DNA of 45,916 nucleotides, from NCBI RefSeq assembly GCF_003148885.1, contig NZ_QGHD01000001.1, forward strand, positions 350,176-396,091, in the 5' to 3' direction. The notes under the pieces are model-generated. The model ran no database searches and was not told the DNA's origin. It saw only the letters and a list, made by a program, of their open reading frames with translations. Below are positions 5,913 through 20,979 of this stretch, piece by piece. Source of the DNA: Hallerella porci. GTDB taxonomy: Bacteria > Fibrobacterota > Fibrobacteria > Fibrobacterales > Fibrobacteraceae. Every line of letters starts with the position of its first letter. Within the stretch, counting starts at the first letter, position 1. A program made the translations under genes and the position numbers.

Positions 5913-5941
5913 GTAACACTTTTTTCCTCCTCAGGTGTTAC
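5913..5941 (+). promoter_or_regulatory. Inverted repeat over the ribosome binding site of the sigma factor gene
   Basis: GTAACAC (5913-5919) and GTGTTAC (5935-5941) are perfect inverted arms separated by 15 bases. The right arm overlaps AGGTG (5933-5937), the best Shine-Dalgarno sequence for the ATG at 5948. In RNA the hairpin would cover the ribosome binding site; in DNA the arms could be an operator or the -35/-10 elements of an autoregulated ECF promoter. The loop carries CCTCC, an anti-Shine-Dalgarno-like string. The repeat is seen directly; the roles are inference. Confidence 0.5.
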
Positions 5942-5947
5942 AATGGC

Positions 5948-6463
5948 ATGAAACAGCAAAATGAAACCCGCCGCGAGGCTTTTTCGAAACTTTATACGGA
6001 ATATTCACCGATGGTTTTTCGGCGTTGTGAATTTCTGTTAAAGGATCATGCCGAAGCGGGCGACATAATGCAAAATGTTTTCCTGCGGATTTACGATCGA
6101 TGGGAACATCTCGATCTTTCGTCTCCGTCTAGCTTACTTTGGAATACAGCGACGCGGCTTTGCCTCAATCGTTTGCGTGATAAAGTGCGCCGAGGAGTGC
6201 ATGTTTCTAGCGAAGATTTGCTTTTACAAATTGCCTGCGCCCAAGATGAAGCGGACGATTTTGAATCGAAGGGAATTCTCCAACGGATATTCTCAAAAGA
6301 GCCAAAATCGACGCGGACGATTGCGGTGCTCCATTTTGTCGATGGCATGACTCTCGAAGAAACAGCAGAAACCGTAGGACTTTCGGTAAGCGGCGTGCGC
6401 AAACGTTTGCGCAATTTGCAAAACCATGTCCAAGAATTGGAGGCAAAAAATGAAATCCGGTAA
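5948..6463 (+). CDS. ECF-type RNA polymerase sigma factor
   Basis: 171 residues, the usual size for a group 4 (ECF) sigma factor. Region 2 spans about residues 12-80 (FSKLYTEYSPMVFRRC, then the GDIMQNVFLRIYDRWEHL helix). Region 4 spans about residues 115-165 with the helix-turn-helix TLEETAETVGLSVSGVRKRL. Region 3 is missing, as expected. It should direct RNA polymerase to a small regulon, held inactive by the overlapping downstream anti-sigma factor (14 bp overlap). An inverted repeat overlaps its ribosome binding site. The surrounding genes suggest an envelope signal, but the stimulus and regulon are not visible. Confidence 0.9.
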   Translation: MKQQNETRREAFSKLYTEYSPMVFRRCEFLLKDHAEAGDIMQNVFLRIYDRWEHLDLSSPSSLLWNTATRLCLNRLRDKVRRGVHVSSEDLLLQIACAQDEADDFESKGILQRIFSKEPKSTRTIAVLHFVDGMTLEETAETVGLSVSGVRKRLRNLQNHVQELEAKNEIR

Positions 6464-7211
6464 AGTCCTTTCGGATTTAAAACTCGAAAAATATCTGCTC
6501 GGGGAACTCCCGGCAGACGAAATGAAACTTTTACAAGAGCGCGAAGCGACCGATGAAATTTTCCGCGCCCGCGTGGAATTTCTGCGCAAACAAAATCAAA
6601 AAATCCGCGAAGAATTTTCGGAAGAACGCTTTGACGCGCTTCTTCAAGAACGGAGAAATAAACCGAATCATTCAAATTGGATGATTAAAATTGCAGCGAT
6701 GATTGTCGTCGCATTCGGAATTCTTTCGGTGATTTTCATCGCAAAATCCGAACGGCAAATTGTGCCGGTTTCGGAAATCGCAGGCGTCGAAGTTGCGATG
6801 CTTTCGGATTCGGATGTGCGAATTAAAGGCATGCAAAGCCGAATTGAAGTCTGGAAAAAATCTGCAGATACGGCGGTGCTTTTGCAAAATTTAGACGCAG
6901 TGCGCGAAGGCGATGAATTGCAGTTGCGTTATCTTGTGCCACAGAAATGTTTTGGCATTTTCTTGAGTATGGATGGGCGCGGCGTTCTCACGGTGCATTT
7001 AGGAAACGGCAATTCCGCAGTAGAATTAGAACCGGGGAAAATGACGACTCTTCCTTTCGCTTATAAATTAGACGACGCTCCGCATTTTGAAAAATTTTTC
7101 CTCCTCACTTCGGCAAAAAGTTTTGCAGTCAATGCGGATGATTTTGATTCCATATTAAAACAGAAGGAGATTCAAACGGTAACATTTACGGTGCGTAAGG
7201 AGGCAAAATAA
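6450..7211 (+). CDS. Membrane anti-sigma factor with DUF4384-like extracytoplasmic domain
   Basis: 253 residues. I chose the ATG at 6450, nine codons inside the longest frame, because GGAGG (6439-6443) precedes it at the right distance. Residues 1-75 form a charged helical cytoplasmic part (KYLLGELPADE motif like anti-sigma N-termini) without a HxxxCxxC zinc motif. Residues 79-97 are a single membrane span. The outer part, about residues 150-245, has the GDELQLRY and GRGVLTVHLGNGN pattern resembling DUF4384, a domain often found with bacterial caspases; that match is by eye. It most likely binds the overlapping ECF sigma factor and releases it on an envelope signal. The stop overlaps the caspase start by one base (TAATG), so the three genes are coupled. 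Confidence 0.75.
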   Translation: MKSGKVLSDLKLEKYLLGELPADEMKLLQEREATDEIFRARVEFLRKQNQKIREEFSEERFDALLQERRNKPNHSNWMIKIAAMIVVAFGILSVIFIAKSERQIVPVSEIAGVEVAMLSDSDVRIKGMQSRIEVWKKSADTAVLLQNLDAVREGDELQLRYLVPQKCFGIFLSMDGRGVLTVHLGNGNSAVELEPGKMTTLPFAYKLDDAPHFEKFFLLTSAKSFAVNADDFDSILKQKEIQTVTFTVRKEAK

Positions 7212-9334
7212 TGCGTCAACTGAAAAAATTTTTTGATGAATCGATTCTCACGATGAGTTGGATTTTCATTCTCTTAGTCGCAGCTTCATTTTCCGCTGCG
7301 GCCGGAAATTCGGGAACGATAAACCGTTATGTTTTTGCGATTAGTTCAAATTACGGTGGCGAAGGACGTCCGCATTTACGCTATGCGGAATTTGATGCCA
7401 AATCTTTTGCCGCTGTCATCGGCGAAATGGGCGGAACTCCGAAACAGAACATTATCTTTGTGAAAGAGCCGAAAGTTTCGGAACTCGAAAAACAATTCGA
7501 CGCTCTCGATTCTCGCTTAAAAAAGAATGCGGGAAATGGTCGCGAAGAAGTGCTGATTTATTATAGCGGTCACGCTGACGAAAATGGTCTGCGTTTAGGA
7601 AATGAACTCGTCGCATGGCAAAAATTTCGTAAACGCGTGGATGCATTAAATGCAGATGTAAAAATCGCCGTCATCGATGCGTGTGGCTCGGGCGCAATTA
7701 CGCGGGCAAAGGGCGGCGCACAAGTTCCCGCTTTTATGATCGATCAGAGCAGCGATATGAAAGGTTATGCTTTCATCACGAGCAGCACTCAAGATGAAGC
7801 GAGCCAAGAAAGCGATAAACTCAAAGGTTCTTTCTTTACACATTCTCTCGTGAGCGGATTACGCGGCGCGGGCGATTTGAGCGGCGACGGCAAAGTGACT
7901 TTATCCGAAGCGTATCAATTCGCATTTAACGAAACTCTTCAAAAAACCGAAACGACAATCGGCGGTGCACAACATCCAAGTCGTGACATGAGCTTAACGG
8001 GAACGGGCGATGTCGTGATGACCGATTTGCGGAGCACCAAAGCGGGCTTAGGCCTGGCTGAAAATTTAGAAGGCCGCGTTTTTATCCGCGATGAAAAAGG
8101 CGAACTCGTCGCAGAACTTTATAAAAAATCGGGACGCGCGATGAGTCTTGGGCTTCCGGCGGGGAATTATTCTGTCCGCTTAGAAAAGCCCGCAGAATAT
8201 CAAGAAGCCAAAGTCGTTTTGCAAGAAGGAAAAATTCAAAATCTCGCTTCGGCGAATTTCAAAGCAGTCGCTGCCGAAGAAACGGTTTCTCGCGGAGAAA
8301 TCGGCGGAAAGAATTTCAATTCGCGCATCGATTCTCTCGATCATTGCGGAAAATATCGCGTGACATTTAACGCTGCCGATTTGGAACCGAATCCGCGGAA
8401 AGGTTTAATGCTCGGCATTTTCTTCAACAAATCCGATGACATTCTTTTGGGAACGCAAGTGAGTTTAATCGGAAGCGTTGCGAAAAAAGAAATGCACGGC
8501 GCACAAGTTTCCGGTTTATTCAACATGGAATTTGAAAAAATCGAAGGCATTCAAATTTCGGGAATTTTTAACTATACCGATACACTCAAAGGCGCGCAAC
8601 TCAGCTCGGGAGCGAATATTGCGAAAGTTTCTGATTTGCAAATCGGCTTAGGAAATATTTCGAAAAAATCCAAAGTGCAAGTCGGTGTTCTAAACGTTTC
8701 TGAAAATGTGAATGTGCAAGCGGGCTTAATGAACGTCGCCAAAGAAACAAATGCGCCGCAAGTTTCCGTCATCAATTTCGGATGGAAAACGCATGGGCGT
8801 CAATTCGGTCTTATCAACTTCGTAGGATACGCGGACAAAACGCCGATCGGTCTTTTGAACTTTGTCGGAAACGGCGTTTGGAATGTGACCGGAAGCATTA
8901 ACGAAATGAGCGCCACCGCATTTGCATTTCATTTTGGAACAGCGTATTTCTTTACTTCGATTGAAATGTCGCGGGAACTCGAAAAAGGATTTGACCGCTA
9001 CGAAGATATTTACGAATCGGGACTCGGCATCGGCACGCAATTCGGCAAATACGGAACGCATTTTGAACTCGAATATATGTTCCTCTTTGCGCAAGATTCC
9101 TTTGACGATGACAACAGCAATTATCATCATCGGCTGCGTTTCGGTGGCGTAGCAAGACTCCTTCCGTTCGTCGGCATCTCGGCAGGCTTTTCGCTCAACC
9201 TTGCGTCCGAAGGCGATTTGCAATCGGTGATGCTCGAACCGAAAGGCAAGTGGCACGATGATTGGAGCGTGAAAGGGCACAAGGCGAAATTCTGGCCCGG
9301 ACTTTACGCTGGCATTACCCTCGGAAGATTTTAA
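7211..9334 (+). CDS. Exported caspase-like (C14) protease fused to surface repeats and a barrel-like C-terminus
   Basis: 707 residues. The ribosome binding site AAGGAGG sits 7 bases before the ATG. Residues 15-31 form a signal peptide (MSWIFILLVAASFSAAA). A caspase-like domain spans about residues 37-270, with the catalytic dyad in YYSGHAD (H121) and DACGSG (C158) and a DLSGDGKVTLSEAYQFA segment typical of bacterial metacaspase-like proteins. Residues 430-555 hold about nine repeats of 13-16 residues with a GxQxGxxN pattern, like the LA_2272-type surface repeats, probably a beta-solenoid. Residues 570-707 are rich in aromatic, alternating strands and end GITLGRF, like an outer-membrane barrel terminus. 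It is coupled to the sigma/anti-sigma genes. It may cleave an envelope protein such as the anti-sigma factor, which is inference. Confidence 0.8.
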   Translation: MRQLKKFFDESILTMSWIFILLVAASFSAAAGNSGTINRYVFAISSNYGGEGRPHLRYAEFDAKSFAAVIGEMGGTPKQNIIFVKEPKVSELEKQFDALDSRLKKNAGNGREEVLIYYSGHADENGLRLGNELVAWQKFRKRVDALNADVKIAVIDACGSGAITRAKGGAQVPAFMIDQSSDMKGYAFITSSTQDEASQESDKLKGSFFTHSLVSGLRGAGDLSGDGKVTLSEAYQFAFNETLQKTETTIGGAQHPSRDMSLTGTGDVVMTDLRSTKAGLGLAENLEGRVFIRDEKGELVAELYKKSGRAMSLGLPAGNYSVRLEKPAEYQEAKVVLQEGKIQNLASANFKAVAAEETVSRGEIGGKNFNSRIDSLDHCGKYRVTFNAADLEPNPRKGLMLGIFFNKSDDILLGTQVSLIGSVAKKEMHGAQVSGLFNMEFEKIEGIQISGIFNYTDTLKGAQLSSGANIAKVSDLQIGLGNISKKSKVQVGVLNVSENVNVQAGLMNVAKETNAPQVSVINFGWKTHGRQFGLINFVGYADKTPIGLLNFVGNGVWNVTGSINEMSATAFAFHFGTAYFFTSIEMSRELEKGFDRYEDIYESGLGIGTQFGKYGTHFELEYMFLFAQDSFDDDNSNYHHRLRFGGVARLLPFVGISAGFSLNLASEGDLQSVMLEPKGKWHDDWSVKGHKAKFWPGLYAGITLGRF

Positions 9335-9351
9335 TCGCTTGGGGTAATTGT

Positions 9352-10383
9352 ATGCAAAAAATTTTCTTTGATTTCCGAAGAGTATTTTTTCTCGTGTGCT
9401 TCGTCTGCGGCTTTCTAAGCATTGCATCGGCGAACACCGTCAAAAAAGATGCTCCAGATTCCACCAAAGAAAATGCAGCGGATTCGTCGAAAGCGAATGC
9501 TCTTCAAATCAATTGGGAAAATAGTTTTTCCTTCGCCGCGATTTTTCTTTCGCATCGGAGTTTACGCAATTCCGATAATATGCGCAGTTGGCCATTCTTT
9601 CTGATTGCAACTCCTCTCGGTTGGACATCAACTCTCAAAATGCAGAAAAATTTCGGCAAATTACTCGGCGTCAAATCCGCATTCACCGGCGACTTGAATC
9701 TCATGGGCGCAGGAGTGCGGGCTACGGCATCGATTGAACTTTTGCATTTGTTCGAAATCGGAACTCTCGGCAGCGTCAATTCTGCAATCAATTACAGCAG
9801 CGATATGACGCAAATGGGTGTTTACAATTCCGAAAAAAAGAAATTCGAAAATGATTATTTCATGACGGAATTTTTGTTCAACGTCAAATATTTTGCCGCG
9901 ATGACTTTCCCTTTGATGGCAATTCTTCCGAAAAGCGATTGGACAAAAATTTTGCTCAAGCCAAATGCGAGTTTTACTTTTTTGCATTACACGGGAGCCG
10001 CCGACAAAGAAATGTGGAAAGCGGGAAATGAACTTGCTGCAAACGGTTATCGTTATCAATACGGCGCAACTCTTCTCTACATGCTTCCATTTCGGTATCT
10101 CCCGATGGCGATGCTTTCGTATAATGTCATTGGAATCGTGCACAAGTCAGATTACGATGCGGTCTACGACGATTACGATCCGAGTTTCAAAAATATCAGC
10201 ATTACGCCGATGCTTTCTATTCAATTCAGCAAAAAATGGAGCGGTATGTTGATGACAAAAATTGAACGCGTCCGCAAATTCGCCCGTTACCATTTCGACG
10301 AAGACGAAGAACTTCTCCAAAAACGCATCGGCTACGAATGGGCTGTGCCAACGGTCATTTTTATTGTGCAAAGAAAATTTTAA
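9352..10383 (+). CDS. Putative outer-membrane beta-barrel protein, paralogue of 19963-20979
   Basis: 343 residues from the ATG at 9352, chosen because it begins a signal peptide (hydrophobic VFFLVCFVCGFLSIASA); an upstream in-frame codon would overlap the caspase gene. A linker rich in Asp, Ser, Lys and Asn follows. The rest consists of amphipathic strands and ends in FIVQRKF, a terminal phenylalanine as in outer-membrane barrels. It is clearly related along its length to the protein at 19963-20979, sharing LRNS, SWPFF, KSDWTKI, YDAVYDDYDP-like and ITPMLS(I/V)QF motifs. It follows the caspase gene after 17 bp and may close the sigma/caspase operon. No known family is recognised. Confidence 0.7.
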   Translation: MQKIFFDFRRVFFLVCFVCGFLSIASANTVKKDAPDSTKENAADSSKANALQINWENSFSFAAIFLSHRSLRNSDNMRSWPFFLIATPLGWTSTLKMQKNFGKLLGVKSAFTGDLNLMGAGVRATASIELLHLFEIGTLGSVNSAINYSSDMTQMGVYNSEKKKFENDYFMTEFLFNVKYFAAMTFPLMAILPKSDWTKILLKPNASFTFLHYTGAADKEMWKAGNELAANGYRYQYGATLLYMLPFRYLPMAMLSYNVIGIVHKSDYDAVYDDYDPSFKNISITPMLSIQFSKKWSGMLMTKIERVRKFARYHFDEDEELLQKRIGYEWAVPTVIFIVQRKF

Positions 10384-19886: not shown

Positions 19887-19962
19887 AGCGTAAAATATAG
19901 GTTTTATCGGAAACGTGGTGCGTATCACTTTGAATCTTTGTAAACTTTTATATATATGGGGT

Positions 19963-20979
19963 ATGAAATTTTTAAGACGATTCCTTTTGAGTTCTTTGTT
20001 TGGCGCGACATTCGCATTCGCAAATGAAAACGGTGAAGCTTCTGCGGATTCTTTGGATTCCTCGAATTCATCGCCGAAAGAAGAATCATTTCAAGTGGAC
20101 ATTGAACATAATTTGAATTTTTTGGGATTTTATTTGCCGCATAGCGCACTCCGCAATTCCGGCTCTCTCAAAAGTTGGCCGTTTTTTGCATTCGCATTTC
20201 CGCTGAGTTGGACTTCTTCCATTTCTTTGGATAAAAAATTTGGCAAATTGCTTTCGATTAACACGGATTTTTCGGGCGACCTCAATGTATTTGGCACATC
20301 GGTGCGGGCGATGGCCGCTACGAAATGGATGGGACTTCTTGATTTGGGCATCATTGGCAGCGTAACTTCGGCGTTTAATTACAGCTCTTCGAATTCGAGC
20401 ATCATTTTTATGGGCGTTTACAATCCCGAAAAAAAAGAATTGGAAGGCGATAATTTTGGAACCGAAGCGTTGTTCGATGTGAAATATTTTGCGACTCTCA
20501 CAATTCCTTTGATGTCGTTTTTACCCAAGTCCGATTGGACAAAAATCATGATTAAGCCGAGCGCATCGTTAACGAATTTATATTACACGGGCGCAGAAGA
20601 TGGCGAATTCTGGAAAGTCGGCAATGAATATTCGGCAAATGGTTACCGCTATTCTTATGGTGCGACTCTCATTTATCTTTTGCCATTTAAATATTTCCCG
20701 TCGGCGATGGTCAAATATACGGTGAGCGGCATCGTCCACGAATCGGATTATGACGCCGTTTACGATCCCTATGATCCGGGCTTTAAAGAAATTACGATTA
20801 CGCCGATGCTTTCAGTCCAATTCAATGAAAAGTGGAGCGGCCTCTTGATGGTAAACATTGAACGCGAACGCAAATTCCGCCATTACCACTACGACTCAGA
20901 CGAAGAGCTTCTCCAAGAACGCGTCGGCTCCGATTGGACCATTCCACACATTATTTTCCTCGCAACGAGAACATTTTAA
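19963..20979 (+). CDS. Putative outer-membrane beta-barrel protein, paralogue of 9352-10383
   Basis: 338 residues from the ATG at 19963, which begins a signal peptide (FLLSSLFGATFAFA). A Ser/Asp/Glu-rich linker follows, then a domain of amphipathic strands that ends IIFLATRTF, with the terminal phenylalanine typical of outer-membrane barrels. It matches the caspase-operon protein at 9352-10383 along the whole mature part (LRNSGSLKSWPFFAF, LPKSDWTKIMIKP, YDAVYDPYDPGF, ITPMLSVQF). Here it stands alone, followed by a strong terminator. Function is unknown. Confidence 0.72.
   Translation: MKFLRRFLLSSLFGATFAFANENGEASADSLDSSNSSPKEESFQVDIEHNLNFLGFYLPHSALRNSGSLKSWPFFAFAFPLSWTSSISLDKKFGKLLSINTDFSGDLNVFGTSVRAMAATKWMGLLDLGIIGSVTSAFNYSSSNSSIIFMGVYNPEKKELEGDNFGTEALFDVKYFATLTIPLMSFLPKSDWTKIMIKPSASLTNLYYTGAEDGEFWKVGNEYSANGYRYSYGATLIYLLPFKYFPSAMVKYTVSGIVHESDYDAVYDPYDPGFKEITITPMLSVQFNEKWSGLLMVNIERERKFRHYHYDSDEELLQERVGSDWTIPHIIFLATRTF

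Follow-up and report, generated by a model that had tools for sequence, protein, structure and literature searches.

Gene layout and protein architecture

The Hallerella porci DNA analysed here, a stretch of 45,916 nucleotides that we refer to as the window, carries four adjoining plus-strand genes between positions 5948 and 10383, whose reading frames encode an ECF sigma factor, an anti-sigma factor, a caspase and an outer-membrane protein (OMP). The gene for the sigma factor (5948–6463; 171 residues) overlaps by 14 bp that for a single-pass anti-sigma factor (6450–7211; 253 residues), which in turn overlaps by 1 bp the gene for a caspase/β-barrel fusion protein (7211–9334; 707 residues). The gene for the OMP, P0004 (9352–10383; 343 residues), begins after a gap of 17 bp. 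The spacing given in a preliminary description of this locus is confirmed by these reading frames. The same description took all four genes as one set, and in this respect it has to be revised, because P0004 is found behind the caspase gene in just two genomes, that of the window and that of Fibrobacter intestinalis ATCC 43854 (locus L078, genome G140), and its relatives are located elsewhere; members of its family lie away from the operon in about 70 of 111 family genomes, at a loose threshold. A four-gene unit was thus rejected. Judged from sequence, the conserved core is one of three genes, encoding the ECF sigma factor, the single-pass anti-sigma factor and the caspase, with the OMP as a local add-on. 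A paralogue of P0004 with 56% identity is present at 19981–20976 of the window, also on the plus strand (ORF 19915–20979), and the family is widespread in Fibrobacter off the operon.

Profile searches of Pfam and NCBIfam identify the sigma factor through PF04542 (3.9e-11), PF08281 and TIGR02937 (2.2e-21), and its nearest solved sequence is SigW. The window anti-sigma factor gives no family match above the curated cut-offs of either collection. Among 30 of its homologues, 18 match the NCBIfam family 'anti-sigma factor' (best 5.5e-7) and 18 carry the Pfam domain DUF4384, which is not found in the window protein itself; the FecR family is absent from the Pfam matches of all 30. The AlphaFold2 model (mean pLDDT 86.7) shows a four-helix cytoplasmic domain (residues 9–70), a transmembrane helix (residues 75–100), a disordered linker (residues 100–124) and a β domain (residues 131–250), the last being of DUF4384 type as judged from the homologues. 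The NCBIfam matches of the homologues and the single transmembrane helix of the model agree with the earlier assignment of a membrane anti-sigma factor beside the sigma gene. Searches with this protein against solved-structure profiles returned chance matches only, and a fold search with its model returned generic β-sandwiches. An RIKG sequence at residues 124–127 (6819–6830, plus strand), close by the periplasmic face of the inner membrane, is a candidate for cleavage. Alignment and model place this RxKG motif at the border of the disordered linker, which varies in length, and outside the folded β domain; in non-redundant homologues Lys126 is conserved in 69 of 69, Gly127 in 68 of 69 and Arg124 in 66 of 69.

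The caspase protein begins with a signal peptide (residues 1–31, 7211–7303), modelled with a hydrophobic helix at residues 4–25, and continues on the same plus strand with the caspase domain (residues 35–275, 7313–8035), a small β domain (residues 278–355, 8042–8275), a disordered linker (residues 357–370, 8279–8320) and a C-terminal β-barrel (residues 382–706, 8354–9328) that ends in a G-R/K-F type C-terminus. The caspase family PF00656 matches the window protein (3.4e-10) and 40 of 40 homologues, and a search of the H. porci genome finds this caspase as its only one. In the AlphaFold2 model (40 homologues) the mean pLDDT is 82.4, rising to about 95 in the barrel. A sequence search of solved structures gave nothing useful, but comparison of folds did succeed. 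Foldseek relates the front half to legumain and caspases and the back half to NspA, OmpX and porins, and VIA-align superposes residues 34–275 on Arabidopsis metacaspase 4 (Z 18.5) and procaspase-7 (Z 17.8). The barrel matches the VC2662 family at 8e-11, a value under that family's cut-off, and the G-R-F type C-terminus, with its aromatic final residue, is common to the window caspase and its near relatives. The small β domain, whose strands are seen in the model and which is PEGA-like by appearance only, has no family match. The protein scores 53 bits against NF047832 (caspase, EACC1-associated), for which the curated cut-off is 140 bits, and is not a member of that family.

Both marks of an outer-membrane barrel protein, a signal peptide and a C-terminal barrel, are thus present according to the model and Foldseek. 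The caspase had been described as exported, which the signal peptide supports; simple export does not hold, however, since the C-terminal half is modelled as an outer-membrane β-barrel. From the combination of the two features we predict a periplasmic caspase that hangs tethered from the outer membrane.

The catalytic dyad recognised in the preliminary description is indeed intact, His121 and Cys158 being invariant in two sets of homologues, one of 49 and the other of 40. Asp62 and Asp156 are likewise invariant in the set of 40. In metacaspases, two S1 aspartates, Asp95 and Asp211 in T. brucei MC2, give a preference for Arg or Lys (PMC6426788), and our own mapping from that paper suggests that Asp62 and Asp156 are their counterparts. 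With its caspase domain and His-Cys dyad the protein belongs to C14 of clan CD, and the two S1 aspartates point to C14B, with a predicted Arg/Lys specificity. Two further segments of the protein hold basic residues followed by glycine. One is an RxKGG motif (residues 165–169, 7703–7717, plus strand) on a flexible loop after the catalytic Cys, where pLDDT falls below 50 (residues 164–170); Arg165 is conserved in 70 of 70 sequences, Lys167 in 69 of 70 and Gly168 in 70 of 70, and the motif is a candidate for self-processing. The other is Arg361-Gly362 in the disordered linker, a candidate self-release site, where 68 of the 70 non-redundant homologues keep Arg361 and 68 keep Gly362 (one of the exceptions has Lys for Arg361), in surroundings that differ between homologues in both sequence and length. 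Conserved residues within disordered stretches look like processing sites, and these basic-Gly motifs, in flexible segments of both anti-sigma factor and caspase, fit a protease with the two predicted metacaspase S1 aspartates. The RxKG and RG motifs could instead be structural.

Conservation, promoter and target genes

By protein search, 137 of the 168 Fibrobacterota genomes hold relatives. Almost every locus with sufficient flanking sequence, in dozens of genomes, has the genes in the order sigma factor, anti-sigma factor, caspase, with overlaps or short gaps, and this order spans Fibrobacter, Chitinispirillia and further classes of the Fibrobacterota. The four-gene order that had been proposed as the search target is therefore recovered in its three-gene core and, outside F. 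intestinalis ATCC 43854, not in its fourth gene. The triad also occurs at loci labelled, in metagenome-assembled genomes, as Gemmatimonadetes (L133), Spirochaetales (L135), Myxococcales (L136) and Proteobacteria (L131). Its recurrence goes far beyond chance. When only strong, orthologue-grade matches are counted (tallied by hand from tables), 90 of the 111 family genomes have both caspase and anti-sigma factor, 4 the caspase only, 1 the anti-sigma factor only and 16 neither, giving a Fisher p of ∼1e-14 that is uncorrected for relatedness; several of the five discordant genomes are incomplete. Nine genomes (G008, G009, G011, G014 and G155–G159) have multiple matches to both proteins, suggesting expanded paralogous modules.

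Upstream of the sigma gene, at 5913–5939 on the plus strand, lies a putative promoter, not noted in the preliminary description, of the form GTRACA-N16-GTGTT (GTAACACTT-N13-GTGTT). Of 70 homologous loci, 62 have it, in slightly relaxed form, ahead of the sigma gene, those with other phylum labels included. This sigma factor is predicted to recognise it. The start codon ATG of the sigma gene begins 8 nt past the promoter, so that the sigma mRNA may be leaderless. The window copy is near-palindromic (GTAACAC...GTGTTAC) and for this reason also matches the minus strand. That the element is a mere hairpin or palindrome is disfavoured, as its right half varies (GTGTTA/T/C) and GTRACA and the 16-bp gap are fixed. 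The family scan used a stricter form, GTRACACTT-N13-GTGTT, which occurs at 233 sites in the 111 family genomes compared with 11 for the reversed control (sums from the table). The H. porci genome itself shows no large regulon: the exact pattern occurs there once, in the window, and a search allowing two mismatches gives 11 matches against 61 for the control.

The caspase gene is not everywhere joined to its partners. It stands apart from the sigma/anti-sigma pair in termite-gut Fibrimonadaceae and their kin (L107–L109, L112, L116, L117, L119 and L120), and L113 and L115 likewise read as caspase loci without an adjoining pair. A promoter of the same type lies upstream of the lone caspase at L107, L109, L113, L116, L117 and L119, although at L107 and L113 it falls within the automatically called ORF, the real start of which probably lies downstream; at L108, L112, L115 and L120 no exact copy is present in the stretch examined. 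Several of these split genomes have the sigma/anti-sigma pair on another contig, with a promoter copy of its own. Since most lone caspases are preceded by the promoter, the caspase looks like a target of the sigma factor independently of the operon. In genome G053 (L039/L127) the operon is intact and has an extra internal promoter just before the caspase gene, possibly an intermediate towards the split arrangement. The neighbours of the sigma/anti-sigma pair in related genomes are thus far from random, as an order kept across the phylum, joint presence and absence, and a promoter retained on most unlinked caspases all attest; the linked unit of the preliminary description stands, and from these sequence comparisons the linkage and co-regulation of sigma factor, anti-sigma factor and caspase are well supported.

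A survey of 40 stretches downstream of promoter sites shows that nearly all the sites precede a few families: the sigma factor, the caspase, a TonB receptor, a DUF3450 gene and FMN reductases. In other Fibrobacter the putative targets comprise a TonB-dependent receptor (Plug, PF07715) with a DUF4249 lipoprotein gene next in line; an operon for a DUF3450 protein, then MotA/ExbB, ExbB, ExbD and a TonB-like protein; and flavin (FMN) reductase genes. Behind some sites no gene can be called with conviction: L158 lies at a contig end, and L163 and L184 have short ORF calls. The window genome and G140 are without orthologous TonB receptor or DUF3450 genes, and in these two the operon has P0004 attached instead; G141–G145 have the receptor and DUF3450 genes, and neither the module nor promoter sites. 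Within the window's own genus the module and the receptor/DUF3450 system are mutually exclusive, G000 and G140 having the module only and G141–G144 the receptor system only. With the module present without these targets in the window genome, and the targets present without the module in G141–G144, the output seems to differ between lineages. One promoter site each is found in G083, G086, G088 and G152, which are without a caspase or anti-sigma orthologue; the site in G088 precedes a TonB receptor and that in G083 a DUF3450 gene. An incomplete assembly or a second, related sigma factor are possible explanations for these four.

Comparison with known systems

The module shares several features with the FecI/FecR/FecA system. 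Each has an ECF sigma factor encoded beside a single-pass anti-sigma factor, and an additional N-terminal domain placed in the periplasm ahead of an outer-membrane barrel; step-wise proteolysis is expected, and in the Fibrobacter relatives alone the targets include a TonB-dependent receptor. In contrast with FecA, however, the barrel has no match to a TonB plug in any of 40 homologues and carries a protease domain in place of the signalling (STN) domain, and in contrast with FecR the anti-sigma factor has a DUF4384-type periplasmic domain and no FecR match. As two defining features of FecI/FecR systems, the FecR domain and a plug-bearing transducer, are lacking, we do not file the module as a member. 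It resembles the RseA/DegS/RseP and RsiW/RsiP systems in having a predicted site-1 cut outside the membrane and one M50 site-2 protease, but its proposed site-1 enzyme would be an outer-membrane-tethered caspase that is encoded together with its substrate. With the bacterial orthocaspases and metacaspases of C14B the caspase shares the His-Cys dyad, the two conserved S1 aspartates and the caspase fold; it differs from them in its fusion to an outer-membrane barrel and in being encoded with an ECF sigma/anti-sigma pair.

Caspases and other proteases also meet sigma factors in CRISPR immunity. In the PCaspase/PC-sigma system of type III-B CRISPR, a prokaryotic caspase acts on sigma/anti-sigma partners and is activated in the cytoplasm by a SAVED-CHAT protease. 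In the type III-E Craspase system (Csx29-Csx30-CASP-sigma), a caspase-like protease relieves the inhibitor of an ECF sigma factor (PMC10028731), and in the type III system CalpL/CalpT/CalpS a protease, an anti-sigma factor and an ECF sigma factor form three partners (PMC11417357). Craspase, however, has a CHAT domain and is switched on by a guide RNA and its target RNA, whereas the present module has no CRISPR neighbours; CalpL is a Lon protease with a SAVED sensor, driven by a second messenger, where the module has a caspase. Neither in the operon nor in the genes close to it do Pfam, NCBIfam and PADLOC reveal a CRISPR effector or a SAVED/CHAT partner, and a CRISPR or defence link was set aside, PADLOC having given trivial matches only for the operon proteins. 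Literature searches of partial coverage, in which absence is not proof, returned nothing that joins Fibrobacter, an ECF sigma factor and a caspase. The earlier statement that no such system had been described is thus upheld, as far as could be searched, for the exact gene set; it does not extend to ECF systems with a protease-cleaved anti-sigma factor, for which the type III CRISPR example with a caspase-like protease is precedent (PMC10028731).

A signalling model and its alternatives

Taken together, the conserved order and joint occurrence of the genes, the promoter with its targets, the invariant catalytic and S1 residues and the modelled topology are best read as envelope-to-cytoplasm signalling akin to that of FecI/FecR, in which the outer-membrane-tethered caspase would be the site-1 protease of the anti-sigma factor, a reading to which we give an even chance. 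The ECF sigma factor would be held by an anti-sigma factor that exposes a flexible linker and a DUF4384-type domain in the periplasm. On feeling a signal or defect, the barrel would activate the periplasmic caspase (C14, metacaspase-like) on its N-terminal side, possibly through self-cleavage at RxKGG and at Arg361-Gly362. The active caspase would then cut the anti-sigma factor at RxKG, just outside the inner membrane, after which the cell's only site-2 protease (the H. porci genome has one M50 gene, PF02163) would finish the release of the sigma factor. The free sigma factor would act at GTRACA-N16-GTGTT to express its own operon; its further targets in most Fibrobacter would be the TonB-dependent receptor, the DUF4249 lipoprotein and the ExbB/ExbD/TonB-type energy unit. 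We infer the activating signal, the pairing of sigma factor with promoter and the order of events, as also the cleavage of the anti-sigma factor by the caspase, for which the sequence offers the candidate sites. Several observations speak against this reading: the promoter sites of G083, G086, G088 and G152, the receptor system of G141–G144 with no module, the absence of those targets from the window genome, the four lone caspases with no exact promoter copy, the promoter sites with no clear gene behind them and the missing DUF4384 match of the window protein; a structural role for the RxKG and RG motifs would likewise weaken it. A more specific version, in which the module represents a class of receptor with a caspase as its signalling domain, the barrel sensing and the caspase freeing itself at Arg361-Gly362 before cutting the anti-sigma RxKG, we regard as tentative and somewhat short of even.

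Could the caspase-barrel protein be an output of the sigma factor rather than its activator? It would then act on other envelope or surface proteins, in maturation or quality control, and a DegS- or Prc-like protease would open the anti-sigma factor. The sigma-type promoter retained on the caspase gene in split genomes does suggest a target, and a self-regulated operon alone gives no direction of signal. Lineages differ, however, in targets such as the TonB receptor, whereas they keep or lose caspase and anti-sigma factor jointly, and the RxKG motif of the anti-sigma factor suits the predicted specificity of the caspase; we therefore consider this alternative rather unlikely, though a serious one. 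A role without catalysis on the anti-sigma factor has a precedent in FoxA, whose signalling domain, itself subject to cleavage, binds FoxR in the absence of signal and guards it against proteolysis (PMC11637429). By analogy, the caspase domain or barrel would bind the DUF4384-type domain, shielding or exposing the anti-sigma factor, and the peptidase would work only on the barrel protein. DUF4384 is elsewhere fused to a clade of caspase homologues (PMC6426788), and Arg361-Gly362 in the linker would suit self-release. The strict invariance of the dyad and the S1 aspartates, together with an RxKG motif conserved outside the folded domain of the anti-sigma factor, nevertheless makes such a purely binding role improbable. 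The fourth gene shows that outside genes can enter the operon, and a housekeeping surface caspase could in principle share it by plain clustering, with no functional link. Against such chance company stand a gene order kept through the phylum and under other phylum labels, joint loss, and a promoter still shared after the operon has broken up, and we give it hardly any credence.

The role of bacterial caspase homologues is often framed as one of cell death or phage defence. The module described here, phylum-wide in its distribution, ties a bacterial caspase to a cell-surface transcription switch for which the promoter, the targets and the candidate cleavage sites are defined. The question of what the caspase does thereby becomes directly testable, the more so as cultured carriers exist, F. 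intestinalis ATCC 43854 among them. If the proposed model is true, the caspase is an envelope site-1 protease, and thus a bacterial signalling caspase outside both CRISPR immunity and cell death. The module would then extend cell-surface signalling by a further receptor design, and would offer a first means of addressing the regulation of surface transport in the Fibrobacter that degrade fibre in herbivore guts.
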